Of a DNA stretch of 64,000 nt, positions 1-56,541 are shown piece by piece. The translations under genes were made by a program, and so were the position numbers. The DNA is from Corynebacterium sp. sy039 (lineage in GTDB: Bacteria; Actinomycetota; Actinomycetes; Mycobacteriales; Mycobacteriaceae), in assembly GCF_007904105.1 (NCBI RefSeq), contig NZ_CP042325.1, positions 558,001 to 622,000 of the forward strand, in the 5' to 3' direction. Below the pieces are notes generated by a model. That model saw nothing but the letters and a program-made list of their open reading frames with translations, had not been told where the DNA came from and made no database searches. The stretch's first letter is position 1. Each line of letters starts with the position of its first letter.

Positions 1-1164
1 ATTACAGTGGTGAAGAAGATTAACGACGATGATGCCAATGCGAAGCCTGGTGTGAAGGTTCAACCTGGTGAGGATATGAGCATCGTGTTTGAGGTATCGA
101 ATGATGGTGATGTGGCACTCGGTGACGTTGCATTGTCGGATAATGTGATCCCAGCAGACCAGATTACGTGTGAGGATAAGCCTGACACGTTGAATCCTGG
201 TGACAGTTTCACGTGTTCTGCGACACTTACAGCACCATTGTCTGGTGATCATGTGAATATCGCAACGGTGGAAGGTACCCCTGTGTACGCGGAGGGTGAG
301 TCTGGTCCGACTGATCCTGTTATGGATTCTGATGTTGCTCGTGCGTGGGTGGATGAGCCTGAGAAGGTGGTGAAGGTTCCTTCCATTACAGTGGTGAAGA
401 AGATTAATGGTGATGATGCCAATAGTAAGCCTGGTGTGAAAGTACAACCAGGTGAAGACATGAACATCGTGTTTGAGGTGACTAATACTGGTTCGGCAGT
501 ACTGGAAGACATTGATCTTGCGGATAATGTGATTCCATCGGATCAGATCACGTGTGAGGATAAACCAGAGTCACTCAAGCCTGGTGAGTCGTTCACCTGC
601 CATGCGACACTCAAGGCACCATCGTCTGGTGATCATGTGAATATCGCAACCGCCCAGGCAACTCCTGTGTATGGTGATGGTGAGACTGGTTCTGATCAGC
701 CTGTGTTGGATGTTGATGTGGCTCGTGCTGTGGTGGTGGAGCCTGACCAACCAGAACAACCAGAGCAGCCTGAGGAAGGCAAGCCTTCTAAACCTGCTAA
801 GCCTGCTAAGCCTTCCAAGCCTGAGGCGGACAAGCCTGCTGGGTCGTGTGGTGAGTCTGTGGGTGTTAAGCCTGCGTGTGGCACACCAAGCGAACCTGAG
901 TCCAGCAAACCTGGGTCTGAGCCTGGCCAGTCTGGTGGTGTGATTGCTGGTGAGGTTGTGAAGCATTGCCAGAAACCAACCAACCCTGGTGATAGTCCTG
1001 CCCAGTCTGGCACCAATCCTGCCGAGTCTGGCGAGCCTGTGAAGGCTGAGCCTGGTGCGGATAAGACCGCTAAGACGGTGAAGGCTGGTGCTAAGACTAA
1101 TACTGGTGGCAAGACTCAGAAGTCTGGTGTGCGGGTAACTACGGGTGGTCATCTAGCAGCGTAG
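1..1164 (+). CDS. Surface protein with tandem DUF11-like repeats, 5' end missing
   Basis: The reading frame is open from the first base, so the true start and any signal peptide lie outside the window. What remains is at least two tandem beta-rich repeats of about 125 residues. Each begins with a TVVKKIN motif, continues through VKVQPGEDM and an ITCEDKP segment, and ends near DHVNIAT; this resembles the DUF11 family of bacterial surface adhesin repeats. The last ~130 residues are low complexity, rich in Pro, Glu, Lys and Ser, with a few Cys. The protein ends VTTGGHLAA, almost the same tail as the two surface proteins near 53-56 kb. There is no LPXTG motif and no C-terminal membrane segment. 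It is probably secreted or cell-envelope associated; the ligand is unknown. Confidence 0.8.
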   Translation: MTVVKKINDDDANAKPGVKVQPGEDMSIVFEVSNDGDVALGDVALSDNVIPADQITCEDKPDTLNPGDSFTCSATLTAPLSGDHVNIATVEGTPVYAEGESGPTDPVMDSDVARAWVDEPEKVVKVPSITVVKKINGDDANSKPGVKVQPGEDMNIVFEVTNTGSAVLEDIDLADNVIPSDQITCEDKPESLKPGESFTCHATLKAPSSGDHVNIATAQATPVYGDGETGSDQPVLDVDVARAVVVEPDQPEQPEQPEEGKPSKPAKPAKPSKPEADKPAGSCGESVGVKPACGTPSEPESSKPGSEPGQSGGVIAGEVVKHCQKPTNPGDSPAQSGTNPAESGEPVKAEPGADKTAKTVKAGAKTNTGGKTQKSGVRVTTGGHLAA

Positions 1165-2987: not shown

Positions 2988-3781
2988 GCCTCAGAGGATT
3001 CAGAGAGCAAAGAGCGTACCTGCTCATGTAAGTGCCCGTTAGTGGCCAGAGCATCACCACCATGAGGTCCTGGAATGCCGGCGAGAGAGCTAAAGCTCCC
3101 GCCGGCTTCTTCAACTAAAATTGCCAGTGCGGCAAGATCCCATAGCGATACTTCTGGTTCGGCAGCTATGTCGACGCTACCCTCAGCAACTAAACAATAA
3201 GACCAGAAGTCGCCAAAGCCGCGTAGCCGCCAGGTGTCATCGGAGAGTTTCTGAAAATTAGCTAATAGTTCGCGTTCTTTCCAACCGTCGAGTGAGGAAA
3301 AAGAAACCGAGGCATCACCAAGTTGGGTAACGCCAGAGACGTGAATGGGGTTTACTTTTCCATTGACACTGCGATATGCCCCGCTGCCTTGGGCTGCCCA
3401 CCAGCGTCGATTCAATGCTGGGGCAGAAACCACACCTACCACAGGGTGACCGTCGACAAGCAAGGCGATAAGGGTAGCCCACACAGGTACTCCGCGCACA
3501 TAGTTTTTTGTGCCGTCGATGGGGTCGATAACCCATTGCCGTCCGCTTAGCTGGGGCTGTCCGCCGAATTCCTCGCCCAGAATATGATCCTGCGGAAAAT
3601 GCTCAGTAATGAGTGAACGCAGCAGCTGCTCGCACGCAATATCCGCATCAGAAACTGGAGTCATATCCGGTTTAGCTTCCACGCGCAGGTCATTGGCATA
3701 GAACCGTTCATGAGTAAGCTCATCGGCACGTTGGGCAAGTTCTAATGCAAAAGCTAATTCAGCAGCATAAGGGGTATTCAT
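2984..3781 (-). CDS. hisN: Histidinol-phosphatase (inositol monophosphatase family), HisN
   Basis: A 265-residue member of the Mg2+-dependent inositol monophosphatase fold. Metal ligands are visible: GEE at 69-71, DPIDGT at 86-91 and the C-terminal WD at 214-215. In Corynebacterium glutamicum the homologue close to prfB is the histidinol-phosphatase that completes histidine synthesis, and the position here matches. A second family member follows the same orientation immediately upstream. Substrate assignment rests on synteny and the TKNYVRG context after the metal site; a general inositol phosphatase role cannot be excluded from sequence alone. Confidence 0.8.
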
Positions 3782-3820
3782 GCTTGTTTAGCCTAATTGC
3801 TTAGCTAGGGATGTGTCCAT

Positions 3821-4684
3821 CTACTGCTGTTTTGCTTGTTCTATGATGCGCAACATTTCTGCTACCACCTGCTTATTGCCCGCAAGCGACCATTCAATGC
3901 CATTTACCTCAACCTGTTCTGCAGCACCGCCAGCGCCTTGGATAAGCGCAGCACCAGGCAACCAATCCCAGGCAGGAACACTATGCTGTGCCCATGCGCC
4001 GAGATTTCCTTGGGCGACTTGAGCTAAATCCACTGAGCCTGCCCCTAACATTCGCAGAGCAGCAAAGGACTCAGCCAATGCCTGCCACGGTTGCGCAATC
4101 TCTGGTTGACTCAGGGCAGTAGGGTGGATGTAGGTCGCAAAAGAAATATCAGCACATGGTTGTTCACTAAGCGACGCTACCTCTTTGCCGTTAAAAGTAG
4201 TAGGAATATCTGGACCGCCAAACCAGGTATAGCCCAGATCAGGGCGATGGACTGCACCAAAATGTAGGGCAGTGGGATGTGTTGGTTCGCCGTCGATAAG
4301 CGCGAGGGCACTGCACCAATAGTCGGATGCAGCAGCAAAATTGTAGGTGCCGTCGACAGGGTCAATAACCCAAGTTCGCCCAGAGGTGCTGGCTTTGGCG
4401 GTTCCTTCTTCGCCGAGAATACCGTCGTTGGGGCGTAGTTGCTCTAACACAGAGGTAACAAATTGCTCGGCGGCACGATCGGCATTAGTTACAACATCGC
4501 TTATCGACGTTTTGTGTTCCACTGCCACTCCTTGTTCGCGCAGGCGCCACGCAAGACGAGCTGCATTAAACACTAATGCTTGGGCGAGGTGGGCGTCAGT
4601 ATCATCTTGGTGCGAAATAACAAAGGTTTTGGCAAGGGCTGCGACAAAAGTTTCTAAATCTGGATGCGTTGCGTCGTTCGTCAT
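3821..4684 (-). CDS. Inositol monophosphatase family protein
   Basis: A 287-residue paralogue of the downstream hisN product. The metal-binding motifs are GEE at 91-93, DPVDGTYNF from 108 and WDW at 239-241. An N-terminal extension of about 35 residues precedes the phosphatase fold. Family members hydrolyse myo-inositol phosphate or related sugar phosphates; in actinobacteria this could feed inositol-lipid synthesis. It is co-directional with hisN, 39 bp apart, and divergent from prfB. The exact substrate is not shown by the sequence. Confidence 0.85.
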   Translation of the reverse strand: MTNDATHPDLETFVAALAKTFVISHQDDTDAHLAQALVFNAARLAWRLREQGVAVEHKTSISDVVTNADRAAEQFVTSVLEQLRPNDGILGEEGTAKASTSGRTWVIDPVDGTYNFAAASDYWCSALALIDGEPTHPTALHFGAVHRPDLGYTWFGGPDIPTTFNGKEVASLSEQPCADISFATYIHPTALSQPEIAQPWQALAESFAALRMLGAGSVDLAQVAQGNLGAWAQHSVPAWDWLPGAALIQGAGGAAEQVEVNGIEWSLAGNKQVVAEMLRIIEQAKQQ

Positions 4685-4771
4685 ACTTTCTATTGTGCAA
4701 TATCGACAAAGATTCTGCTTTTCGTTAGGGCATATTTTGGCGAGCGGAAGTTCAAGGTAGAATGAACCACC

Positions 4772-5884
4772 ATGCGACCGGAAACATCAGCCCAGATAAC
4801 GAAACTCGACACAACCCTCGTCACTATTGAAAAAGTGCTTGATCCGCAACAGATGGCTGATCGGATTCGCGAGTTAGAAGCCCAAGCATCAGACCCATCA
4901 CTGTGGGATGACCCCGACCATGCGCAACAAGTCACCACAGAGCTTTCTGCTGTCCAATCTTCCCTGAAGAAAATACGTGATATTCGTCAGCGTCTCGACG
5001 ACCTTCCCATCATGTATGAATTAGCCGAAGAAGACACCTCAGACTCATCTGGGCTAGAACTGGCAGAGCAAGAATTAGCTGACCTTACCGCAGCAATTGA
5101 TGCTTTAGAAGTAAAAACCATGCTCTCTGGCCCTTATGATGCTCGTGAGGCAGTGATCAACATTCGCTCAGGAGCTGGTGGTTCCGAAGCTGCTGACTGG
5201 GCAGAAATGCTGATGAGAATGTACACTCGCTGGGCAGAAAAGAATGGTCATGCAGTAGAAATCTATGATATTTCCTATGCGGAAGAAGCGGGCATTAAAT
5301 CCGCCACTTTTGTGGTTCATGGCGAGTATATGTATGGCACGCTTTCTGTGGAACAAGGGGCACATCGGTTGGTACGCATCAGTCCCTTTGATAGCCAATC
5401 CCGACGCCATACTTCTTTTGCCGAGGTAGAAGTATTGCCGGTGGTGGAGCAAACAGATCACATTGATATTCCAGATTCTGATATTCGTGTTGATGTGTTC
5501 CGTTCTTCCGGACCAGGTGGACAGTCAGTAAATACCACAGACTCAGCAGTGCGCATCACGCACATTCCCACAAATATCGTGGTGACCTGTCAGAATGAGA
5601 AATCGCAAATCCAGAACCGGGCGTCGGCAATGCGCGTGCTCCAAGCAAAATTATTAGAGCGCAAGCGCCAAGAAGAAAAGAATGAATTAGAAGCTCTTGG
5701 CGCTGGCGGCAATGCCTCCTGGGGTAACCAAATGCGCTCTTATGTATTGCACCCATATCAGATGGTGAAGGATCTGCGCACAAACTATGAAGTCAATGAC
5801 CCCGGAAAAGTTCTCGACGGGGACATTGACAAGTTCCTTGAAGCTGGTATTAGGTGGCGCATTGCCCAAAACCAAGCTGATTAA
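4772..5884 (+). CDS. prfB: Peptide chain release factor 2
   Basis: RF2 recognises UGA and UAA stop codons and triggers peptide release on the ribosome. The 370-residue product has the UGA-specific SPF motif at 204-206 and the catalytic GGQ at 249-251 in GPGGQSVN. The frame is continuous from the ATG, so the programmed +1 frameshift found in many bacterial prfB genes is absent. It begins the conserved actinobacterial series prfB-ftsE-ftsX-smpB-tmRNA, here interrupted by an AbgT transporter gene on the opposite strand. Its end lies 7 bp from the end of that transporter gene. Confidence 0.97.
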
Positions 5885-5891
5885 TCGCTGA

Positions 5892-7532
5892 TCAAGCAGG
5901 GTAGGTGTATGGCGTACCAGGTCCAAGTGGTAATCCGAGGAAATACCACAGGATAAAGAATAAGAACCAGCTAATGAGCATGGACAGTGAGTAAGGCAGC
6001 GCTAGCGAAAATAGCGTACCGACACCAGCCTTTTTGTAATAGCGCTGTAGGAAAATGAGCGCCAACGCAAACGAAGGGCTCATCGGAGTAATGATGTTGG
6101 TGGTGGAATCACCGATACGGAAAATCATCTGAGATACCTCCGGGCTGACGCCAATATACATCATCATCGGTACCACAATAGGAGCCATAAGCGACCACTG
6201 AGCCGAGCCAGAGGTAATGAGCAGGTTGAGCAAGGCAACCATGAGAACCAACAAGGTAAAGGTGACAACAAGTGGCAAGTGCCATTTCTGCAACAATTCT
6301 GCGCCTTTAATTGCCAACCACACTCCAAGATTTGACCACTTAAACCAAGCAAGGAATTGAGATAACACCAAGAACAGACCAATCAGCGGCAGCAAAGGTG
6401 CTAGTCCTTTGGCAATAAAATTAGGGACATCGGCAGATTCAGTGATTGTCTTTGCCGCAAGACCATATACAGTACCCAGGATGAAAAATCCTGCAGTAAT
6501 AGGCACTGCAATGGCGCGGATCAATGGGCCTTCGAGTGGGCCTTCTGGGCTGTAGAGCGGGGAGAATGGCGCAAATAGTGCTGCGAAATAGCACGCAATG
6601 TAGATGGCGGCAGCTATGCCTGTTACTTTTAAGGCTTTTACTTCTTGTGGTTTAAGGCTGAGATCTTTTTCCGATACTGCACCGGAGTCAGCGCCAGTAC
6701 CAGTGCTGGTATCAGAGTCAGAAGGTGCGGCTGAATCTTCGGAGTTCGCAAAAGACAATTCCGAAAAATCAATAGCACTGTGGTCGATAATACTGTGTGC
6801 TTTGCGTTCCATATATAGCTCTGTCACTGCGGTAATAATCAAGGAGAGCAAAATAGTAGAAGCGATGACGAAGAAATAGTTTGCCAGTGGCGATACCTCG
6901 TAGGATTCATCAACAATATGTGCTGCTGAAGTTGAAATACCGCCCAGGAGCACATCGGTGATGTTGAGAATCAAACTTGCGTTGAATCCGGCAGAAGAAG
7001 CCGCAAAAGCAACGATTGCCCCCACGATGGGTGAGCGCCCCAGGGCACGGAAACTAATAGCGCCAATGGGAATGAGAATGACATAGATGGCGTCGGAAGC
7101 AATGGAGCCAGTGACGCCAGCAAGGGAGAGCATAAAGGTAATGGTGCGTGCCCCTACGCGAGCCACCATGACCCGAATAAGCGCAGAAATAAGCCCTGAA
7201 TGTTCTGCTACTGCGACGCCAAACATCACGGTAATAATCACGCCTAGTGGTGGAAAAGTCGTGAAGTTATTGATCGCCTCACTAAACATCTGCTGTATCC
7301 CTTGCTTGGTGAGCAGATTAGTGACGTAGATTGTTTCCCCAGTTTGTGGATCTTGTGCGTGGAGTCCCAAAGCGGAACCAATCCAGCTGCCTACTGCTAC
7401 CATCACGGCAAAGAACATAAAGAGCCATAATGGTGCAGGTAGTTTATTGCCTAGTCGTTCAAGTTTAGCTAGGAACCCGCCGCTGCGCGTAGCGTCGGGT
7501 GAGTGCTCTACAGGAGTGGCCTGAGCATTCAT
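5892..7532 (-). CDS. AbgT family transporter
   Basis: A 546-residue membrane protein of the AbgT family, whose members import p-aminobenzoyl-glutamate or export sulfonamide-type antimetabolites. About 12 hydrophobic segments are visible, with a long hydrophilic Ser/Asp/Glu-rich loop in the middle. The chosen start is the ATG before NAQATPVEH because GGAGG sits 8 nt upstream; an open frame extends 33 codons further but has no comparable site. The gene breaks the usual prfB-ftsE adjacency, which suggests insertion into this conserved block. Substrate is not determinable here. Confidence 0.9.
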   Translation of the reverse strand: MNAQATPVEHSPDATRSGGFLAKLERLGNKLPAPLWLFMFFAVMVAVGSWIGSALGLHAQDPQTGETIYVTNLLTKQGIQQMFSEAINNFTTFPPLGVIITVMFGVAVAEHSGLISALIRVMVARVGARTITFMLSLAGVTGSIASDAIYVILIPIGAISFRALGRSPIVGAIVAFAASSAGFNASLILNITDVLLGGISTSAAHIVDESYEVSPLANYFFVIASTILLSLIITAVTELYMERKAHSIIDHSAIDFSELSFANSEDSAAPSDSDTSTGTGADSGAVSEKDLSLKPQEVKALKVTGIAAAIYIACYFAALFAPFSPLYSPEGPLEGPLIRAIAVPITAGFFILGTVYGLAAKTITESADVPNFIAKGLAPLLPLIGLFLVLSQFLAWFKWSNLGVWLAIKGAELLQKWHLPLVVTFTLLVLMVALLNLLITSGSAQWSLMAPIVVPMMMYIGVSPEVSQMIFRIGDSTTNIITPMSPSFALALIFLQRYYKKAGVGTLFSLALPYSLSMLISWFLFFILWYFLGLPLGPGTPYTYPA

Positions 7533-7710
7533 AGGAGATTCCTCCGCGTTAAGGTCAATGAGATATGAATGTAGCAATGCCAGCATGATTGCACGCAAAA
7601 GCGTCGAATGCTGTTGGCATGACAATAGCACTAGAAATATCTATAGGTAAATAAATACTCATGATGCACTGGGCTGTATGGAATTTGCGGAGTTTGCTAA
7701 GGTGTAGTTC

Positions 7711-8400
7711 GTGATTACCTTTGACAACGTCACCAAGCTATATAAGACTTCTACGCGCCCAGCTCTCGACAACATCTCTCTTGAGATAGACAGCGGAGAG
7801 TTTGTTTTCTTGATCGGTCCTTCTGGTTCTGGAAAATCAACTTTCTTACAATTAATGATTAGAGAAACTAATCTCACCAGCGGTGACATTTATTTTTCTG
7901 ATACCCATGTGAATAAATTACGTGGTAACCAGATCAATAAGCTACGGCAAAACATTGGTTATGTGTTCCAGGACTTCCGTCTCCTACAGCAAAAAACAGT
8001 CTATGACAACGTAGCTTTTGCACTAGAAGTGATCGGCACCAAGAAAAAAGATATTGCGCAGCGCGTACCCGAGATGCTAGAGATGGTGGGTCTTGCGGCT
8101 AAGGCAAACCGTATGCCACAGGAGCTTTCTGGTGGTGAGCAGCAGCGAGTGGCAATTGCACGTGCTACGGTAAACCGCCCTATTCTTCTGCTTGCCGACG
8201 AACCAACAGGCAACCTTGACCCAGATACTTCAGACGACATTATGACCTTGCTAGCCAACATCAATAGCGCTGGTACAACAGTTATTATGTCGACGCATAA
8301 TGCTCGGGCGGTCAATGATATGCGTAGGCGAGTCATCGAGTTGAATCTCGGTAAACTGGTGCGCGACGACGCTCATGGCGTCTACGGCGAGGCACAATAA
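7711..8400 (+). CDS. ftsE: Cell division ATP-binding protein FtsE
   Basis: An ABC ATPase of 229 residues that pairs with FtsX to control peptidoglycan hydrolases at the septum. Walker A is GPSGSGKST at 36-44, the signature LSGGEQQ is at 139-145, and Walker B LLADEP at 160-165 precedes TGNLD. The start is GTG, giving [11 protein letters not shown] as in other actinobacterial FtsE. ftsX begins 22 bp after the stop, so the two genes are co-transcribed. Confidence 0.97.
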
Positions 8401-8422
8401 GGAACAAAGGGAGTAAAAAATA

Positions 8423-9325
8423 ATGAGTTTTTCTTATGTGACTCGTGAGGCTTTCCGTGGTCTAGGAAAAAATATCACCATGACCATTGCGCTTGTGATT
8501 ACCACAGCAATCTCGCTAGCGCTGCTGGCAACAGGAGTGTTGGTGACCAATATGACTGCAAAAACAAAAGATATCTACCTCGACAGGGTAGAGGTCATGG
8601 TGCAGTTCAATGAAGAAGTTTCTGCCCAGGATCCTGATTGTTCTTCCCCGCAGTGCCGAGAGGTAAAAGATAAGCTGGAACAAGAATCAGGAATTGAATC
8701 TATCGAGTATCGTTCTCGTGCTCAATCCTATGAGCGTTTCGTGCAGGTATTTGAGAATTCTGATCCTTTGCTTGTGCAAGAGACATCACCAGATGCACTA
8801 CCAGCTGCATTGCACGTACGCTTATCGGATCCTCTTGATACCACCCCGCTTGATGTTATTCGTCAGCTCCCACAGGTGAGTTCAGTTGTGGATCAGGTTG
8901 ATGATTTGCGTGGAGCTACTGAGAATCTTGATTCAATCCGTAACGCTACTTTCTTATGCGCGGGTATTCAGGCATTAGCCGCGATATTCCTCATTGCAAA
9001 TATGGTGCAGTTGGCTGCTTTTAATCGTCGGGAAGAAATCTCTATCATGCGCATGGTTGGTGCCTCGCGCTGGTACACCCAGGCTCCTTTTGTGCTCGAA
9101 GCAGTGATAGCGGCAATTTTTGGTTCAATTCTTGCTGGTGTATCTATTTTCGCTGGAAAAGTTTGGGTTATTGATAAAACATTGCATGGTCTTTACGAGG
9201 CTCAATTGCTTGCCCCAATAACTATGAATGACATCTGGCTAGTCCTGCCAATTGTAGCGGCGATCGGTATTGTCTTTGCTGCGATTACTGCGCAAGCTAC
9301 CTTGCGTTGGTACGTCCGCAAGTAG
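8423..9325 (+). CDS. ftsX: Permease-like cell division protein FtsX
   Basis: A 300-residue integral membrane protein with one N-terminal helix (about 20-45), a large extracellular domain (about 50-165) and three C-terminal helices, the FtsX/MacB arrangement. It anchors FtsE and transmits its ATPase cycle to extracellular RipC/NlpC-type hydrolases. The extracellular part has CSSPQC, a possible disulfide pair as in mycobacterial FtsX. It lies directly between ftsE and smpB. Confidence 0.95.
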   Translation: MSFSYVTREAFRGLGKNITMTIALVITTAISLALLATGVLVTNMTAKTKDIYLDRVEVMVQFNEEVSAQDPDCSSPQCREVKDKLEQESGIESIEYRSRAQSYERFVQVFENSDPLLVQETSPDALPAALHVRLSDPLDTTPLDVIRQLPQVSSVVDQVDDLRGATENLDSIRNATFLCAGIQALAAIFLIANMVQLAAFNRREEISIMRMVGASRWYTQAPFVLEAVIAAIFGSILAGVSIFAGKVWVIDKTLHGLYEAQLLAPITMNDIWLVLPIVAAIGIVFAAITAQATLRWYVRK

Positions 9326-9376
9326 GTTTTGTTGGTTTTTCTTTAGCCGCATAAAGAATTAGCATGGTAAAGCATT

Positions 9377-9871
9377 ATGGCTAAGAAAAAAGATAAGAAG
9401 AAAAATAATAACCCTGTGATTGCCACCAATCGCAGGGCACGGCATGATTACACAATTTTAGATACCTATGAGTGTGGTGTGGTTTTAGTCGGTACCGAGG
9501 TAAAGGCACTGCGTGAGGGCAAAGTGTCGATTGTGGATTCCTTTGCCAGCATTGACGAGGGGGAAGTGTGGTTACGCAATCTCAACATTCCGCTTTATTC
9601 GCGAGGGCATTGGACTAATCACAACCCTATGCGTACCCGAAAGCTCTTGTTACATCGTCGAGAGATTGATTCGCTTTTAGGAAAGGTTCGCGATGGTGGG
9701 AAAACCCTGGTGCCCCTGTCGCTGTATTTTAAGGATGGGCGCTTGAAAGTAGAATTAGCGCTTGCTCAGGGTAAGCAAGACTATGATAAGCGGCAAGCAA
9801 TCAAACGTCGCACTGAAGAACGCGAGATCGTACGTGACCTGGGGCGTCGCGTAAAAGGTATTGCAGGCTAA
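9377..9871 (+). CDS. smpB: SsrA-binding protein SmpB
   Basis: SmpB (164 residues) binds tmRNA and brings it to stalled ribosomes for trans-translation. The conserved NRRARHDY start, [15 protein letters not shown] and [13 protein letters not shown] segments are present, with a basic C-terminal tail DKRQAIKRR that inserts in the mRNA channel. The N-terminus has an extra lysine-rich run. Its partner RNA gene lies 0.8 kb downstream on the other strand. Confidence 0.97.
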
Positions 9872-9880
9872 AACATAGCA

Positions 9881-9917
9881 AGAGGCGTCGTAGAGCATTG
9901 TGCTTTACGACGCCTCT
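9881..9917. terminator. Hairpin between smpB and the convergent small membrane protein gene
   Basis: A 16-bp stem starting AGAGGCGTCGTA with a 5-nt loop, placed between two converging genes. No T-run follows, so it may act in both directions or with Rho. Confidence 0.6.
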
Positions 9918-9925
9918 GCCATACA

Positions 9926-10120
9926 TTACTGAGTGCTTTTGTTGGCACCATCCCACATGAAAAATGCAACAGGACCCATGAGTGGGGCAATGAGAATAAC
10001 GATAGCCCACAATGCAGTTTCTGAGGTCGTGAGTTGTTTACGCAAGAGTGAGAGAAGCGCAATGATGGGGATAACAATGAGAATAATGAACGATATGGCT
10101 GCGAGAATGAGATTCAACAT
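9926..10120 (-). CDS. Small membrane protein, phospholipase D nuclease N-terminal (PLDc_N) type
   Basis: A 64-residue protein made of two hydrophobic helices (about 4-25 and 36-56) with a short basic loop between them. The second helix region, WAIVILIAPLMGPVAFFMWD, matches the PLDc_N pattern found as stand-alone small actinobacterial membrane proteins. Function is unknown. No strong ribosome binding site is seen before the ATG. Convergent with smpB. Confidence 0.75.
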   Translation of the reverse strand: MLNLILAAISFIILIVIPIIALLSLLRKQLTTSETALWAIVILIAPLMGPVAFFMWDGANKSTQ

Positions 10121-10190
10121 AACTTCGAGTATATATTTCTGTTTTTTTTTTCAATTTTTAACTGTTTTTCAACACGTAAGTGTGAGGTAT

Positions 10191-10220
10191 TTGGTTCCCT
10201 GAGAGCACTATGGGTAGACT
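10191..10220 (+). promoter_or_regulatory. Probable promoter of the bS22 gene
   Basis: TTGGTT and TAGACT are spaced by 18 bp. Transcription would start at about 10227, just before a leader whose two ends can pair. Assigned by eye only. Confidence 0.45.
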
Positions 10221-10226
10221 ATTAAA

Positions 10227-10380
10227 GTTCGTGTCAGCTCATGTTCGGAATCTCATGCGTGGCTTTGTAACACATGGGGAGTGAGCATAAGGCTTGCCCT
10301 GGCGTAGAGGCGGCATGGTTGTGCTGACACTGAAAAAGGGAAGCACTGTACAACCTATTGATTGAAACGAGGAAGCCTGT
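10227..10380 (+). promoter_or_regulatory. Possible structured 5' leader of the bS22 gene
   Basis: The ~150-nt leader begins with GTGTCAGC (10231-10238), which can pair perfectly with GCTGACAC (10323-10330) to close a domain of about 100 nt. The segment CAGCTCATGT near its start recurs as the left arm of the terminator after the gene. A long leader before a 33-codon gene is out of proportion and suggests regulation, but no known RNA family was recognised. Confidence 0.35.
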
Positions 10381-10482
10381 ATGGGTTCTGTCATTAAGAA
10401 ACGCCGTAAGCGTATGTCTAAGAAGAAGCACCGTAAACTATTGCGTCGTACCCGTGTGCAACGACGTAAACTCGGTAAGTAA
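10381..10482 (+). CDS. Small ribosomal subunit protein bS22 (AURKAIP1/COX24-like)
   Basis: A 33-residue, extremely basic protein, [18 protein letters not shown] onward, ending RRKLGK. It is nearly identical to the tiny actinobacterial protein seen in mycobacterial ribosome structures as bS22, near the decoding region of the 30S subunit. GAGGA precedes the ATG at suitable distance. The gene is short enough to be missed by automatic calling. A terminator follows directly, so it is monocistronic. Confidence 0.92.
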
Positions 10483-10494
10483 GACGCGTTTGCC

Positions 10495-10535
10495 AGCTCA
10501 TGTAATACGTTTGTGTTGCATGAGCTTTTCTTTTT
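10495..10535 (+). terminator. Rho-independent terminator after bS22
   Basis: AGCTCATG and CATGAGCT form an 8-bp stem with a 16-nt loop, followed by a run of T broken by single C. Confidence 0.8.
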
Positions 10536-10615
10536 TCTTGAAGTGTGGTTGTGGTCGTGGCGGGAAAGATGTGGGCACCGAGTATCTTTTACCGAAATCT
10601 ATAGATATAAAAATC

Positions 10616-10642
10616 CCTCTCTAGCTGTGATAACTAGAGAGG
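10616..10642. terminator. Bidirectional terminator, 3' of tmRNA
   Basis: CCTCTCTAG and CTAGAGAGG form a 9-bp stem. Five T follow on each strand, so it can end tmRNA transcription (minus) and any read-through from bS22 (plus). Confidence 0.85.
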
Positions 10643-10648
10643 TTTTTG

Positions 10649-11027
10649 TGGAGCCGCCGGGGATTGAACCCGGGTCCTGCGCCACCTTGCCAGGGCTTCT
10701 CCGTGCGCAGTTCGCGCGGAATCTTTACTTGACTTTCTGGATGGGACGAACTCCTCCAGATGATAAGCCCAGTTATCAGTGTGCGTCCCACATAGCCCTA
10801 ATAACACAACTATGCGGCAAGTTCCTTAGTCGATGCCAGATTCTAGATCAGGAACGAAATCTAGGCTGACAGACACGCGTCGCTGAAATTAGGCAGCGAG
10901 GGCGTAGTCACGCTGAGAGTTTTTCTCTGCGTTTATTTTAGTTGCTACGACGCTTACGGTGGTCTCTAGCCTGCACCGGCACGCTTCCCCTGGCGCAATG
11001 TACACAGTCGAAACCAAAATCGACCCC
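10649..11027 (-). ncRNA. ssrA: Transfer-messenger RNA (tmRNA)
   Basis: tmRNA rescues stalled ribosomes together with SmpB. The acceptor stem GGGGUCG (5') pairs with CGGCUCC (3'), with two wobble pairs; the T-arm GGGTTCAATCCC is next to the 3' end. CCA is not encoded. The conserved GGTTTCGACTG follows the 5' stem. The mRNA-like part encodes the tag AEKNSQRDYALAA followed by TAA, matching the corynebacterial tag ending SQRDYALAA. The gene is about 380 nt and lies downstream of smpB on the opposite strand. Confidence 0.97.
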
Positions 11028-11361
11028 AAGATAACCACGAGGTTCGAGGTTATATGTACGAGCTATGTGGTTCCTAGGGAATAAGAAAACCAATAGCCTT
11101 AGTGAGATTACTCTCTGAAGATGTTTTTGTAAAGTATGCTCCAGCATTGCCGACAAGATTCAGTTGAGTAAGTTGAGAAAGCTGATCAGGCTGAGAAGAA
11201 TTAGTGCTGTGCATTTTGGGCAAGGGTATGCATTCCGCCGCATAGAGAGCGCACAGTGAATAGGTGAAAACATGGTTTGAGCATTGATTTTGTGTTATTG
11301 GAAAGTTCAAGTATAGTACAACACAGCGTAGACAGCTGGTTATAGTGTGTCTATGGTTCTA
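11028..11361. other. Intergenic region between tmRNA and the tRNA cluster
   Basis: No gene is recognised. It must hold the tmRNA promoter (minus) and the tRNA-Glu promoter (plus). TATAGT at 11312-11317 and again at 11341-11346 are candidate -10 elements for the tRNAs. A partial inverted repeat (ATAACC/GGTTAT) lies just upstream of the tmRNA 5' end. Confidence 0.4.
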
Positions 11362-11434
11362 GCTCCCATCGTCTAGAGGCCTAGGACTCCGCCCTTTCAC
11401 GGCGGCAACACGGGTTCGAATCCCGTTGGGAGTA
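11362..11434 (+). tRNA. tRNA-Glu (TTC)
   Basis: A 73-nt cloverleaf with acceptor GCTCCCA/TGGGAGT (one wobble pair), anticodon TTC in CCCTTTCAC, and T-loop GGTTCGAATCC. CCA is not encoded. It is the first of four tRNA genes on this strand. Confidence 0.96.
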
Positions 11435-11465
11435 CAACTACCACTTGGTAGCTATAACAAAATAA

Positions 11466-11539
11466 GGCCCTGTGGCGCAGTTGGTTAGCGCGCCGCCCTG
11501 TCACGGCGGAGGTCGCGGGTTCAAGCCCCGTCAGGGTCG
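11466..11539 (+). tRNA. tRNA-Asp (GTC), copy 1
   Basis: A 74-nt cloverleaf with acceptor GGCCCTG/CAGGGTC, anticodon GTC in CCTGTCACG and discriminator G. CCA is not encoded. It is identical to the copy about 350 bp downstream. Confidence 0.96.
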
Positions 11540-11551
11540 CTTGTGTGAAAG

Positions 11552-11592
11552 CCCTGTTATCCTGTGTAAGTTCAGGATAGCAGGGTGTTTTG
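11552..11592 (+). terminator. Terminator after tRNA-Glu/tRNA-Asp
   Basis: CCCTGTTATCCTG and CAGGATAGCAGGG form a 13-bp stem (one wobble pair) with an 8-nt loop, followed by GTTTT. It separates the first two tRNA genes from the second pair. Confidence 0.75.
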
Positions 11593-11887
11593 CTGTGTAG
11601 ACGTCGTTAAGCGGTTAAGGTTTCTAGAGTGTTTGTTTTATAGCTCGTCGTTAAAGACAAGGGACGGGAAACATGGGGGGGCATGGGGAGCAGGCAAGCC
11701 GGAGTGATGGTGTGTTATCGAAGCAAAAGCTGTTGGAGTCATCAGTAAGCAGAGATGCTAGAGTGCTTCTACCAGCAGACTTGCTAAATAAAAAGCATTC
11801 TGTGTAATGTATCAACTCGTGCAAAGATATGTTGTATTCAATGCTCTTTGTGCGTATGTGTAGTGATTCTTAAGAATTATTCGCATT
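11593..11887. other. Intergenic region between the two tRNA-Asp copies
   Basis: About 300 bp with no coding frame or RNA that could be recognised. A run of seven G occurs near 11674. It presumably carries a separate promoter for the second tRNA-Asp and tRNA-Phe. Confidence 0.4.
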
Positions 11888-11961
11888 GGCCCTGTGGCGC
11901 AGTTGGTTAGCGCGCCGCCCTGTCACGGCGGAGGTCGCGGGTTCAAGCCCCGTCAGGGTCG
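11888..11961 (+). tRNA. tRNA-Asp (GTC), copy 2
   Basis: Identical over its full 74 nt to the first tRNA-Asp, consistent with local duplication. It is followed 20 bp later by tRNA-Phe. Confidence 0.96.
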
Positions 11962-11981
11962 CTGGCTATTTTTTAGCCTGT

Positions 11982-12054
11982 GGCGCGGTAGCTCAGTCGG
12001 TAGAGCGTCCGCCTGAAAAGTGGAAGGTCACCGGTTCGATCCCGGTCCGTGCCA
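11982..12054 (+). tRNA. tRNA-Phe (GAA)
   Basis: A 73-nt cloverleaf with acceptor GGCGCGG/CCGTGCC, anticodon GAA in CCTGAAAAG, T-loop GGTTCGATCCC and discriminator A. CCA is not encoded. Confidence 0.96.
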
Positions 12055-12060
12055 CATAGA

Positions 12061-12097
12061 AAAAAACGGTACTTCTTAAGAAGTACCGTTTTTTTTC
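12061..12097 (+). terminator. Strong terminator after the tRNA cluster
   Basis: A perfect palindrome ACGGTACTTCTTAAGAAGT extended by A-tract and T-tract flanks. The run of eight T makes a classic intrinsic terminator. Confidence 0.92.
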
Positions 12098-12134
12098 TAA
12101 AAGAATCTTTGCCTAAAGCCTAAGATAAATATGT

Positions 12135-12425
12135 ATGAGTATCCATACTGCTGTGCATGAATCCAAATCTCGCTTTGAGATTTTCGTTGATGATACCTTA
12201 GCGGGCTATGTCACTTTTCTTGAAGACGAACAGCGTAAAACACGCAATTTTAATCACACTCTCGTCAAAGAAAAATATCAGGGGCAAGGTTTATCAAAAC
12301 CACTTATCCGTTTTGCACTAGACCACACCCGTGCCGATGGATATGGTGTCATCGCTACTTGTTCTGCCGTAGCAGCCTTTATACAGAAGAATCCTGAGTA
12401 TCAGGATTTACTGGTGCAGCACTAG
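12135..12425 (+). CDS. Small GNAT-type N-acetyltransferase (NATD1/YjdJ-like)
   Basis: A 96-residue protein of the short GNAT subfamily. The acetyl-CoA-binding stretch is VKEKYQGQGLSKPL (Q/RxxGxG/A-like) near residue 45-58, and the pattern of strands matches one-domain YjdJ/NATD1 proteins. The substrate is unknown. It follows the tRNA terminator with about 40 bp of spacer and converges on cysE. In related species an acetyltransferase gene also neighbours cysE. Confidence 0.85.
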   Translation: MSIHTAVHESKSRFEIFVDDTLAGYVTFLEDEQRKTRNFNHTLVKEKYQGQGLSKPLIRFALDHTRADGYGVIATCSAVAAFIQKNPEYQDLLVQH

Positions 12426-12462
12426 CACAAACTAGGTAGGCGTCGAAAAGCCTAGATACAAC

Positions 12463-13029
12463 CTAGATATAGTAGTCTGGGTCCACCAGCTTGATTTTTT
12501 CTTCCTTCTTGCGTGGTCGATAGCTTGCAGGAATACCTACGGCGATACTCTCCGCCGGAACGTCCTTTGTGACTACGGCATTGGCGCCGATGGCTGAGCC
12601 TTTTCCAATCCGAATAGGACCTAAAATTTTTGCGCCTGCCCCGATGGTGACATCATCTTCTATAGTGGGGTGGCGTTTTGTTTGGGTTAAGACCTGACCG
12701 CCCAGGGTGACACCGTGGTAGAGCATGACTCCGTCGCCGATTTCTGCGGTTTCGCCGATCACGATACCCATGCCATGATCAATAAAAAAGCGTCTGCCAA
12801 TAGTGGCACCAGGGTGGATTTCGACTCCGGTGAGAAACCGCGTGAATTGCGCTAGCAGGCGTGCAATGCCTTTGTGCCCACGTATCCAGAGCCAATGCGA
12901 GATTCTATGCGACCAAATCGCGTGCAGCCCAGAATAAACGATGGCATTTTCTATATCACTACGCGCGGCAGGGTCATGCTCGCGCGCATTTTTTAGATCT
13001 TCACGGATTCTGTCAATAATTTTGTTCAT
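12463..13029 (-). CDS. cysE: Serine O-acetyltransferase
   Basis: CysE transfers acetyl from acetyl-CoA to L-serine, making O-acetylserine for cysteine synthesis. The product is 188 residues from the chosen ATG ([12 protein letters not shown]), the usual length in corynebacteria. The frame extends 28 codons upstream but those overlap the cysK terminator. Left-handed beta-helix hexapeptide repeats run from about IHPGATIG to [12 protein letters not shown]. The C-terminal tail ends DPDYYI, resembling the CysK-binding tail with terminal Ile. cysK lies just upstream on the same strand. Confidence 0.95.
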
Positions 13030-53132: not shown

Positions 53133-53138
53133 TATGAT
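53133..53138 (+). promoter_or_regulatory. Candidate -10 of surface protein gene 1
   Basis: TATGAT in GGTTATGATG; the same element with similar flanks occurs before the second copy (54877-54882). The following ~90 bp, up to the start codons, are alike in both genes. No -35 is clear. Confidence 0.4.
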
Positions 53139-53224
53139 GAGAAAGGCTTTTAGGTTTTTCTCAGCTTTGTGTGGTTGAGGGGAATTGGGAAAGTGTTTTT
53201 GTTCTTTTTCCTAGGAGAGAAATA

Positions 53225-54808
53225 ATGTTGTTGAATCGTTTTGCTAAGCGTGCTGCGGCGGTTGCTGCCGTAAGTATGCTTGGTGCGGGTTTTCTATCCC
53301 CCCCCCCCTCGGTATTAGCAGGTAACGGTGGTACGGAAGAGTATCCAGTCCATAATAATACCTTTGGTTTTTGGGGTGGTGCGAACTGTGACACTGGTTC
53401 TACCTGTGTGAAACAAGTGGGGGATGAAACACAGGTCACGTGGCAAGTGCAATTGTCACCACTGGTTTTTTCTCAGAATCACGTCCAAACTACTCGTGGT
53501 GCGCAGATTATGATCCCATCTACTGTGAAAGATGTGTCGATCAAGCTCACGCATATGCCTGATATTTACATGCGACCAGTTGATGATGGCACAGGGGATC
53601 TTGAGGGAACTCAGTGGGAAGATGCGGATGGTAATCCATTACCTGAAGAAAATATCATTACCGATAAGAATGATAGTTATGTTCCTGCCAAGGCGGTGGA
53701 CTATCAGGTTCCGATCGTTGATTCGATAGCAGAGCTTACTGATAATGACACGTATAAAGTGTCGTCGTTTGTGAAGAATCCTGATGGTTCTTTGAGCAAT
53801 GCACCTGTATCAGAGGAGTCGGGAGAGAATTCATACGGGGTTCAGCCTTCGTCTTTTGCTGAGCAGCCTGATTGGGATTTCTACCAAATCGGCTTGAACA
53901 CAGTGGGTGTTTATACCTTTGAGGTCACTGGTACTGTGGAAGCGGTTGGTGATGATACGTATGTGCCGATTCGTGCTGAGAATATGCTGTGGAAATGCTC
54001 TGCTGAGGGTGGTGGACCTGGTAGTTATGAGGGAGGTTGCGCGAGTCTGAAAGATTATGAGTGGGGTCTTACTGGTGAGTTGCCTCCTGTCACTACCAAA
54101 GAGCAGTCTGAGGAAACGCGTAACAAGATCGTCGAACTATATAAGAAGCAGGGAAAAATTGATGGTTTGACTGGTGTTGGTGCGTGTGCTGTGACAGCAG
54201 ATATTGATCGTTTCGATACGATTGGTAGTGATATAGAGCCGACTGTTGATGGCAAGCATGGTGCTTACGCACAGGAGTTTCATCTTCGCTTGAATCCTGC
54301 GGTGAGGTATTATGGTCCGCTTAATGGTGCTGAGGATAACTGTGATCAGGGTTTCCAGCATATTACTCTTTGTCCTGATGAGGAGACTGAGGTTCCACCT
54401 AGCAAGGAGCCTGTAGAGTCTGAAGAGCCACAGGAATCTGAAGAGCCTACTCCTTCTGAAGAAGAGGAGGTTGGTCCTGCTAAGCCTTCTAAAGAATCTG
54501 AGGAGCCTACTGCTAGCGAGGAATCTGGGGAGTCTGGGGAGCCTACATCGTCTAAGAAAATGCAGGAGCCTGGAGAACCTATTTCTAGTGAAGAACCTGT
54601 TTCTTCTGAGAGTAAGTTTGTACCATCTGCTCAATCTGAGCAGGGTAAACCTGCTGAGTCTATGCCAGAATCTAAGCCAGAATCTAAGCTTGAGTCTAAG
54701 ACTGTTATCGCTGAAAGTGTGAAGGATAACGTCGCTAAGCAGGCTAAGACTGTAGCGAAGAAAGACCGTCCTAAAGTAACTACGGGTGGTCATCTGCGCG
54801 TAGCGTAA
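53225..54808 (+). CDS. Secreted surface protein, paralogue 1, in frame (phase ON)
   Basis: A 527-residue protein with a signal peptide (basic MLLNRFAKR, hydrophobic core, SPPPSVLA before the likely cut). The globular part (about 40-390) shares most residues with the downstream paralogue and has Cys pairs (NCDTGSTC, WKCSAEGG...GGC). The C-terminal ~140 residues are rich in Glu, Pro, Ser and Lys, ending PKVTTGGHLRVA. No LPXTG or C-terminal membrane helix. An 11-C run (53298-53308) encodes the Pro residues of the signal peptide and keeps the frame open. AGGAG precedes the ATG. No known domain is recognised. Confidence 0.88.
   Translation: MLLNRFAKRAAAVAAVSMLGAGFLSPPPSVLAGNGGTEEYPVHNNTFGFWGGANCDTGSTCVKQVGDETQVTWQVQLSPLVFSQNHVQTTRGAQIMIPSTVKDVSIKLTHMPDIYMRPVDDGTGDLEGTQWEDADGNPLPEENIITDKNDSYVPAKAVDYQVPIVDSIAELTDNDTYKVSSFVKNPDGSLSNAPVSEESGENSYGVQPSSFAEQPDWDFYQIGLNTVGVYTFEVTGTVEAVGDDTYVPIRAENMLWKCSAEGGGPGSYEGGCASLKDYEWGLTGELPPVTTKEQSEETRNKIVELYKKQGKIDGLTGVGACAVTADIDRFDTIGSDIEPTVDGKHGAYAQEFHLRLNPAVRYYGPLNGAEDNCDQGFQHITLCPDEETEVPPSKEPVESEEPQESEEPTPSEEEEVGPAKPSKESEEPTASEESGESGEPTSSKKMQEPGEPISSEEPVSSESKFVPSAQSEQGKPAESMPESKPESKLESKTVIAESVKDNVAKQAKTVAKKDRPKVTTGGHLRVA
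53298..53308 (+). repeat. Poly-C tract (11 C) in signal-peptide codons, paralogue 1
   Basis: Eleven C after CTAT, at codons 25-28. The frame is open only when the count is 8, 11, 14 and so on; 11 is the ON state. Such tracts mutate readily by slipped-strand pairing. Confidence 0.9.
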
Positions 54809-54832
54809 TTTTTGTTTCTTAAGTTTTTTAAG

Positions 54833-54864
54833 AGTCCTGGCACCATTGGTGCTAGGACTTTCTT
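54833..54864 (+). terminator. Terminator after surface protein gene 1
   Basis: AGTCCTGGCACC and GGTGCTAGGACT pair over 12 bp (one wobble pair) with a 3-nt loop, followed by TTCTTT. The second gene then has its own promoter copy. Confidence 0.82.
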
Positions 54865-54977
54865 TATGTCTTGGGTTATGATGGGAAACGCTTTTAGGTT
54901 TTTCTCAGCTTTGTGTGGTTGAGGATGGCTTGGAAAGTGTTTTTGTTCTTTTTCCTAGGAAGAAAATAAGAGGAAAT

Positions 54978-56541
54978 ATGTTTTTACAACGTTTTGCTAA
55001 GCGTGCTGCGGCTGTTGCTGCCGTAAGTATGCTTGGTTCGGGTTTTCTAGCCCCCCCCCTCAGTATTAGCCGCTGGTCCTGTCGGTTCTGATGATAGTGG
55101 CTCCCAGGGCAGCGATGCTCATAATGTTCTTGGTTCGTGGGGTGGTGCGAACTGTGACACTGGTTCTACCTGTGTGAAACAAGTAGGCGATGAAACACAG
55201 GTCACCTGGCAAGTACAACTATCACCTTTGGTGATGGATGAAGATCACATCCAAACCTCTCGTGGTGCGCAAATCATGATCCCATCCACAGTCAAAGATG
55301 TGTCGATTAAGCTGACACATATGCCTAATGTGCAATGGCATAGAGGTGATGCCGCTCAGGGGGAAGACCCTGAGAAAACTTATTGGGAAGATTTGGATGG
55401 TAATCCGCTACCTGAAGAAAAAATCATTGGGTGGCGTAATGATACTTATGTTCCTACCAAAGAAGTAGAGTACCAGGTTCCGATCGTTGATTCGACGGCG
55501 GAACTAACAGATAACGACACGTATAAAGTGTCGTCGTTTGTGAAGAATCCTCATGGTTCTTTAGCTGATGATGAAAAGGGAAGGTATGGTGTTCAGCCTT
55601 CGTCTTTTGCTGAGCAGCCTGAGTGGGATTTCTACCAAATCGGCTTGAACGCGCTGGGTGTTTATACCTTCGAGGTCACCGGTACTGTGGAAGCAGTCGG
55701 TGAGGATACCTATATTCCGATTCGCGCGGATAATATGTTGTGGAAGTGTTCTGCTGAGGGTGGTGGACCTGGTAGTGTTGAGGAAGGTTGCGAGGGGCTA
55801 AAAAATTACGAGTGGGGTCGTACTGGTGAGTTGCCTCCTGTTACTACCAAAGAGCAGTCTGAGGAAACTCGTAACAAGATCGTCGAACTATATAAGAAGC
55901 AGGCGAAAGTTGATGGCTTGACTGGTGTTGGTGCGTGTGCTGTGACAGCAGATATTGGTCGTTTTGACACTATTGGTGCTGATATAGAGCCGGCTGTTGA
56001 TGGCAAGCATGGTGCTTACGCACAGGAGTTTCATTTTCGCTTGAATCCTGCGGTGAATTATTATGGTTCGCTTAATGGTGATGAAGATAATTGTGACCAG
56101 GGTTTCCAGCATATTACTCTTTGTCCTGATGAGGAGTCTGAGGTGCCGCCTAGTGAAGAGCCTGTAGAATCTGAAGAACCAAAGCCTTCTGAAGAAGAGG
56201 AAGTTGGTCCTGCTAAGCCTTCTAAGGAAACTGAGGAACCAACTGCTAGCGAGGAACCTGGGGAGTCTGAGGAACCTACATCTTCTAAGAAATCACAGGA
56301 GCCTGGAGAATCTACTTCTAGTGAAGAACCTGTTTCTTCTGAGAGTAAGTTTGTACCATCTGCTCAATCTGAGCAGGGTAACCCCGCTGAGTCTAAGCCA
56401 GAATCTAAGCCTGAGTCTAAGCCCGCAGCTAAGACCGTTATCTCTGAAAGTGTAAAGGATAACGTCGCTAAGCAGGCTAAGAGCGTTGCGAAGAAAGACC
56501 GTCCTAAAGTAACTACTGGTGGTCACCTGCGCGCTGCGTAG
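54978..56541 (+). CDS. Secreted surface protein, paralogue 2, frameshifted in a poly-C tract (phase OFF)
   Basis: The ATG at 54978 follows AGAGGA and starts MFLQRFAKRAAAVAAVSMLG, a signal peptide like that of paralogue 1. In the 9-C run (55051-55059) the frame is lost and a TGA is met at 55089, after 37 codons. Removing one C or adding two would join the signal peptide to a frame of about 480 codons ending PKVTTGGHLRAA, giving about 520 residues. The body is intact and highly similar to paralogue 1. The middle also differs in places (HMPNVQWHRGDAAQG, AGPVGSDDSG). So the gene is best read as switched off rather than decayed. Confidence 0.85.
55051..55059 (+). repeat. Poly-C tract (9 C) in signal-peptide codons, paralogue 2
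   Basis: Nine C after CTAG, at the same place as the 11-C run in paralogue 1. Nine is out of frame; 8 or 11 would restore it. Confidence 0.9.

Follow-up and report, generated by a model that had tools for sequence, protein, structure and literature searches.

Poly-C tracts in the signal-peptide codons of a 21-member gene family of Corynebacterium sp. sy039 point to probable Opa-like phase variation of predicted exported proteins

The stretch of DNA analysed here (the window) comprises 64,000 nucleotides, positions 558001-622000 of the single-contig genome of Corynebacterium sp. sy039 (G000; 2,236,339 bases), and carries two tandem paralogous genes, copies 1 and 2, each with a long run of C at the same point of its signal-peptide codons. 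Both belong to a larger family of the chromosome, termed family A, nearly all members of which carry such a run. It is likely that this multigene family of exported proteins phase varies by tract slippage, much as the opa genes of Neisseria do; signal peptides were assigned by eye, and export is predicted. In the proposed mechanism, DNA polymerase slippage would alter the length of the C run inside the signal-peptide codons; an in-frame length would yield the full exported protein, any other length a stop after about 30 to 40 codons, and every family A gene would act as an independent translational on/off switch. Because 20 genes have separate tracts and leader blocks, a single clone should contain cells that display different subsets of the proteins, and exchange between copies would diversify the bodies. 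The features of the pair in the window are the following.

53133..53176, + strand: leader block of copy 1, found family-wide (TATGAT at 53133-53138, by eye)
53225..54808, + strand: family A copy 1, probably an exported protein (ATG at 53225, 527 codons in frame, stop codon ending at 54808)
53298..53308, + strand: C11 tract of copy 1, inside codons 25-28
54758..54805, + strand: conserved C-terminal tail of copy 1, KKDRPKVTTGGHLRVA, a VTTGGHLR-type end common to the class B proteins treated below
54831..54861, + strand: terminator-like hairpin separating copies 1 and 2 (14 pairs, T-rich tail)
54877..54927, + strand: leader block of copy 2 (TATGAT at 54877-54882, by eye)
54978..55091, + strand: ATG reading frame of family A copy 2 (37 codons, TGA at 55089-55091)
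55051..55059, + strand: C9 tract of copy 2, at the same signal-peptide point as the tract of copy 1
55060..56541, + strand: body of copy 2, 493 codons open in a frame other than that of the ATG, 82% identity to copy 1

An earlier reading of the letters alone (the sequence-only reading) had placed copy 1 in frame with its C11, and had copy 2 stopped by its C9 at the TGA at 55089 after 37 codons, with its body intact. The coordinates confirmed the former, and the 493 codons that are open downstream of the tract in another frame confirmed the latter. By eye, the C11 of copy 1 lies between the core of the signal peptide and the likely cleavage site (VLA/G). On the + strand of the window the two tracts are the sole C runs longer than five bases (G runs reach seven), and a first-order Markov model of the window gives an expectation of 0.04 for C runs of at least nine. 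The copy 1 protein had no match in Pfam, NCBIfam, PHROGs or PDB sequences. Inside the family leader block, an inverted repeat (TGAGAAA...TTTCTCA, 53138-53163) may represent an operator or an RNA leader stem.

A whole-genome search of G000 returned 21 family A paralogues, spread over 10 loci that hold between one and four copies each; GC content is 48.2% across the G000 loci read. The C run is found at the same place in 20 of them, as C9 in two, C10 in 14, and C11 in four; a long homopolymer whose length change alters the frame is therefore a feature of 20/21 members. Five of the 20 tract-bearing copies are in frame, namely the four with C11 and a divergent one (ATG 1918286) with C10, and the remaining 15 are out of frame, with predicted products of 30-39 codons. 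The claim that the frame is open when the C count is 2 modulo 3 thus held for copy 1 and the three other C11 paralogues, but failed for the gene at ATG 1918286. The 21st paralogue (ATG 1977191), in frame and without a tract, terminates prematurely; this truncated copy was excluded from the substitution-rate analysis, the recombination test, and the comparison of leader pairs.

A leader block and start are common to all 21 upstream regions, those of 1918286 and 1977191 being the most divergent. One type of hairpin recurs at all 11 tandem junctions, so that the copies are probably transcribed as separate units. The view of the window genes as a pair with opposite states proved too narrow: it concerns two of 21 members, each copy has its own leader block, hairpins stand in 11/11 tandem junctions, and neighbours are not in paired states. 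A simple two-gene switch was rejected on the copy number of the family. A plasmid-borne family was likewise not supported, no match being found among the plasmids in the collection. By eye, all 20 long copies close with KVTTGGHLR and two further residues, and a membrane segment is lacking. An LPXTG-like motif followed by a membrane segment and a charged tail was not seen at the family A C termini inspected by eye; G000 has one match to a sortase family.

Judging from its sequence context, the tract does not look like an accident but like a selected or unstable feature. A chance run or a codon habit was rejected on the run expectation, the run lengths in the window, and the CCC counts: CCC accounts for 16 of the 897 Pro codons in the 21 bodies, where the longest C run is five. 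Throughout G000, 37 C or G runs of at least nine bases were observed versus about 6.8 expected (1.3 for C and 5.5 for G, from first-order chains of the window); 20 of these belong to family A and 17 lie elsewhere. Tract length also varies between otherwise similar copies. The two closest leader pairs, with 2/168 and 5/173 differences, differ in tract length (C10/C11 and C9/C10, respectively); of three leader pairs tied at nine differences, it differs in two and is the same in one, and overall it differs in 92 of 190 leader pairs.

The out-of-frame copies do not have the look of dead genes: their bodies stay open as far as the conserved end, and their ratio of nonsynonymous to synonymous substitution rates (dN/dS) is about 0.31. 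All 15 of these bodies are open up to the conserved C-terminal tail, 7837 codons in all; as bodies were cut at the first stop, zero internal stops follows by construction, and the informative point is that the first stop falls beyond the tail. Between out-of-frame copies, dN/dS had a median of 0.31 (range 0.18-0.48; median dS 0.66; 105/105 pairs); values were also obtained for 9/10 pairs of in-frame copies and 70/75 mixed pairs, the remainder having no usable dS. When random substitution was simulated in three bodies, 18-23% were still open after 40 changes. These data suggest that the out-of-frame bodies are under purifying selection. Pseudogene decay was rejected on the same two grounds, the 15/15 bodies that reach the conserved end and the dN/dS.

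The same data bear on the possibility of slow silencing, in which the tract drifts over evolutionary time and marks lineages instead of serving as a fast reversible switch. Such drift would agree with the predominance of C10 among the family A tracts and with the account in PMC4746626, as far as its relevant part goes, that tract variation in Cutibacterium acnes tracked phylogenetic clades. It is, however, at odds with the 15 out-of-frame bodies, which are all open with dN/dS below 0.5, suggesting that each gene is read, and read often enough, and with the two closest leader pairs differing in tract length. We therefore regard slow silencing as unlikely.

Homopolymer miscalls are common at 9-11 bases of C. 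A sequencing or assembly error, by which all genes would truly share one in-frame tract length that had been miscalled, must hence be weighed, the tracts falling exactly within this error-prone range. As the in-frame copies include one with C10 and four with C11, one uniform undercall cannot put all genes in frame. Moreover, G runs of 11-13 were called elsewhere in the genome, a G7 within the window frame 1488-2987 leaves that frame open, and such error leaves unexplained why 20 paralogues carry long C runs at the same place. It would be surprising if miscalls accounted for the pattern.

Equally improbable, in our estimate, is a silent archive, the out-of-frame copies serving only as recombination donors for a few expressed ones. 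Exchange between copies is indeed indicated by a test resembling the pairwise homoplasy index (0/500 shuffles as low; 231 sites, 20 sequences), and the ratio of 15 out-of-frame to five in-frame copies would suit an archive. Yet no copy lacks a start codon or a leader block of its own, and hairpins separate the tandem copies, neither of which donor cassettes need; in addition, five copies are simultaneously in frame at separate places. Least probable of all is a process at the RNA level, with transcriptional slippage or ribosomal frameshifting on poly-C providing a low constant output from each copy: homopolymers permit slippage and the bodies are open, but the bacterial survey of transcriptional slippage in PMC1088944 covered, in the part relevant here, A and T runs, and the tract lengths of family A are not uniform.

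Phase variation by DNA slippage thus remains the favoured explanation, and the repair background of the host is compatible with it. NucS (PF01939) was found in G000, by a search that was positive in 7/14 control genomes, and MutS_V (PF00488) was not found in G000 by a search that was positive in 11/14. NucS of Mycobacterium smegmatis leaves indels of 1-2 bp unrepaired, a gap linked there to homopolymer phase variation in mycobacteria, according to the part of the report that deals with it (PMC11551767, 2024). By analogy, NucS of the window's host may likewise ignore 1-2 bp indels. The proposal of the sequence-only reading, slipped-strand phase variation of exported proteins, is accordingly upheld as regards the shared tract, the open and selected bodies, the leader pairs differing in tract, and the searches that found NucS but no MutS; the switching itself we infer from these. 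Tract lengths would change in growing cells, the family A proteins would be located on the surface, and switching may serve adhesion or antigenic variation.

A number of points weigh against phase variation of family A or limit its scope. C10 in 14/20 tracts is rather uniform for fast random switching. Change in tract length is deduced from paralogues of one genome, a comparison that inter-copy exchange can blur, and homopolymer miscalls could fake some of the tract states. dN/dS reflects past selection and cannot date frame changes. In 17 further reading frames of the window, CCC is used for 60 of the 387 prolines, far more often than in the family A bodies. Nor are poly-C runs unique to this genome: with 88 poly-C 9-mer positions, G000 ranks fourth of 242 genomes of the genus, behind G076 (388), G067 (267), and G028 (95). 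Scanning for consensus promoters gave no site within the shared leader block (three sites in the region versus 4.5 expected), and a two-row AlphaFold2 model of copy 1 was useless, with a mean predicted local distance difference test (pLDDT) score of 33.7. Finally, the authors of the C. acnes study read the clade-wise tract variation as slow accumulation, at least in the portion of PMC4746626 concerned with it. As to the poly-C runs of other genomes, some stand at or near contig starts in G067 and G110, and those of G028 are spread across the genome.

A search with copy 1 matched 3/61 genomes, and a family A profile matched 8/242 genomes of the genus, G000 included, in a survey scoring up to six candidates per genome. 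Homologues with related bodies are present in G265, G260, G148, G032, and G157, and weak ones in G096 and G014; the copies in G265, G260, G148, G157, and G032 have signal-peptide-like N termini (by eye). The nearest relative, G265, has two tandem copies with no poly-C in their signal peptides; its one C10 begins 199 bp upstream of the first of them. C or G runs of at least seven were absent from the stretches read of G260, G148, G157, and G096, and from G032 within 4000-6000. By this comparison, family A is probably older than its coding tract. The proteins of G265 end in VSTGGRIVAA and VATGGSVVAA and that of G148 in VVTGGSV; the short VxTGG end thus recurs in some relatives, and the G032 relative ends in a LANTG-type sortase signal plus a membrane segment.

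The closest precedent in print, likened by description, is C. acnes. As given in the relevant parts of PMC3224659, a C tract at the 5' coding end of PPA2127 (DsA1) shifts the frame, and a G tract changes promoter spacing at PPA1880; 54 variable tracts, nearly all of G/C, are described in the corresponding part of PMC4746626. Like G000, C. acnes is one of the Actinobacteria with a frame-shifting 5' C tract in a surface protein and a promoter-spacing G tract (PMC3224659, PMC6560440, in their pertinent sections). It differs in that the cases named in those sections are a few genes, whereas family A has 21 genes, its tract lies in the signal peptide, and it is accompanied by a promoter-tract set sharing the C-terminal motif.

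The opa system offers the other comparison. In the sections of PMC3960869 used here, up to 11 scattered gonococcal paralogues carry repeats in their leader codons that shift the frame by slippage, at a switching rate given as near 1e-3 per cell per generation, and their diversity arises mostly by recombination. Family A resembles them in its scattered paralogues, each with its own signal-peptide repeat and leader block, and in the signal of inter-copy recombination. However, the opa repeats are CTCTT pentamers and the products outer-membrane beta-barrels, whereas family A has poly-C and Glu/Pro/Ser-rich tails. Homology to Opa beta-barrels was not seen: profile and database searches, which included no direct comparison with Opa, gave no Pfam, NCBIfam, or PDB sequence match for the family A protein. 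Mycobacteria share with G000 the NucS background and homopolymer indels said to control genes (PMC11551767, in the part cited above); G000 differs from them in its amplified surface-type family. Among the titles in the literature searched, with subscription papers outside coverage, no phase switch was found for Corynebacterium, and priority is not claimed.

A second set of genes, the surface-type class B, has the C-terminal motif VTTGGHLRxA in this or closely similar form. At seven loci, a G run (one G11, five G12, and one G13) is flanked by TGGACA-like and TAYTCT hexamers recognised by eye and stands 43-51 bp ahead of the first start codon of a long frame, and these genes seem to be tuned differently from family A, through a G run between promoter-like hexamers. 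They range in size from 633 to about 1970 codons. Of six class B proteins or protein parts tested, five contain DUF7507 repeats and the protein of 633 amino acids had no match; the C-terminal ends are RVTTGGHLAA, RVTTGGHLRAA, or RVTTGGILRNMS. A strict VTTGGHL codon pattern, which misses variants such as VATGG, matched 28 times in G000, once in G149, and not at all in the other 240 genomes of the genus searched; the reversed pattern, used as control, gave two matches overall, neither of them in G000. One class B gene (L065, about 6634-12667; genome 2111722-2105633) is interrupted: the first open frame stops at 1122 codons, and the conserved C terminus is encoded further on. The same kind of C-terminal end is found on a gene ending at 169366, which has VaFE repeats. 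In the gene content, an MctC equivalog (over the cut-off) and an Rv2525c-like protein fit a Corynebacterium, and the citrate synthase, whose best PDB entry is from M. tuberculosis, places the host near mycobacteria. The class B gene that reaches into the window and the other tracts of the genome are as follows.

7..1164 of the window, + strand: 3' part of a class B gene (1954 codons whole, DUF7507 repeats, end RVTTGGHLAA; start about 45 bp after a G12 at genome 553244)
genome 959553 (L053, about 3208-5654): C9 in a type I hsdM; the reading frame changes after the tract
genome 445854 (L047, 3818-4762): G10 near a gene start, behind the end of a sigma-factor-like gene (by eye); no family match over the cut-off
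genome 918314: G10 directly before a major facilitator superfamily (MFS) gene whose closest subfamily is Bcr/CflA, though under the cut-off
genome 944294 (L052), 1051760 (L055), and 2040138 (L060): G10 upstream of three ATP-binding cassette (ABC) ATPase genes
genome 977539 (L054): G10 upstream of a gene for a membrane protein that matches a bacteriocin-associated family weakly, below the cut-off

The C9 in hsdM is a possible methylation switch, and that the gene at 445854 might encode a switchable anti-sigma factor is a guess. We put forward as a tentative, if plausible, extension that the genome has a whole surface phasome, in which 20 genes with signal-peptide poly-C and seven with promoter poly-G would be switched by two mechanisms, the shared VTTGGHLRxA would direct the proteins to the mycomembrane or wall for display without a sortase, and the hsdM, anti-sigma, and ABC-transporter tracts would also switch regulation and methylation.

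If the tracts switch, a Corynebacterium would possess a repertoire of antigens or adhesins on the scale of Opa. If this is true, the NucS-type repair that ignores small indels in M. smegmatis would be linked to an expanded, switchable coat, and VTTGGHLRxA would offer a compact, testable motif for a new route of surface display.

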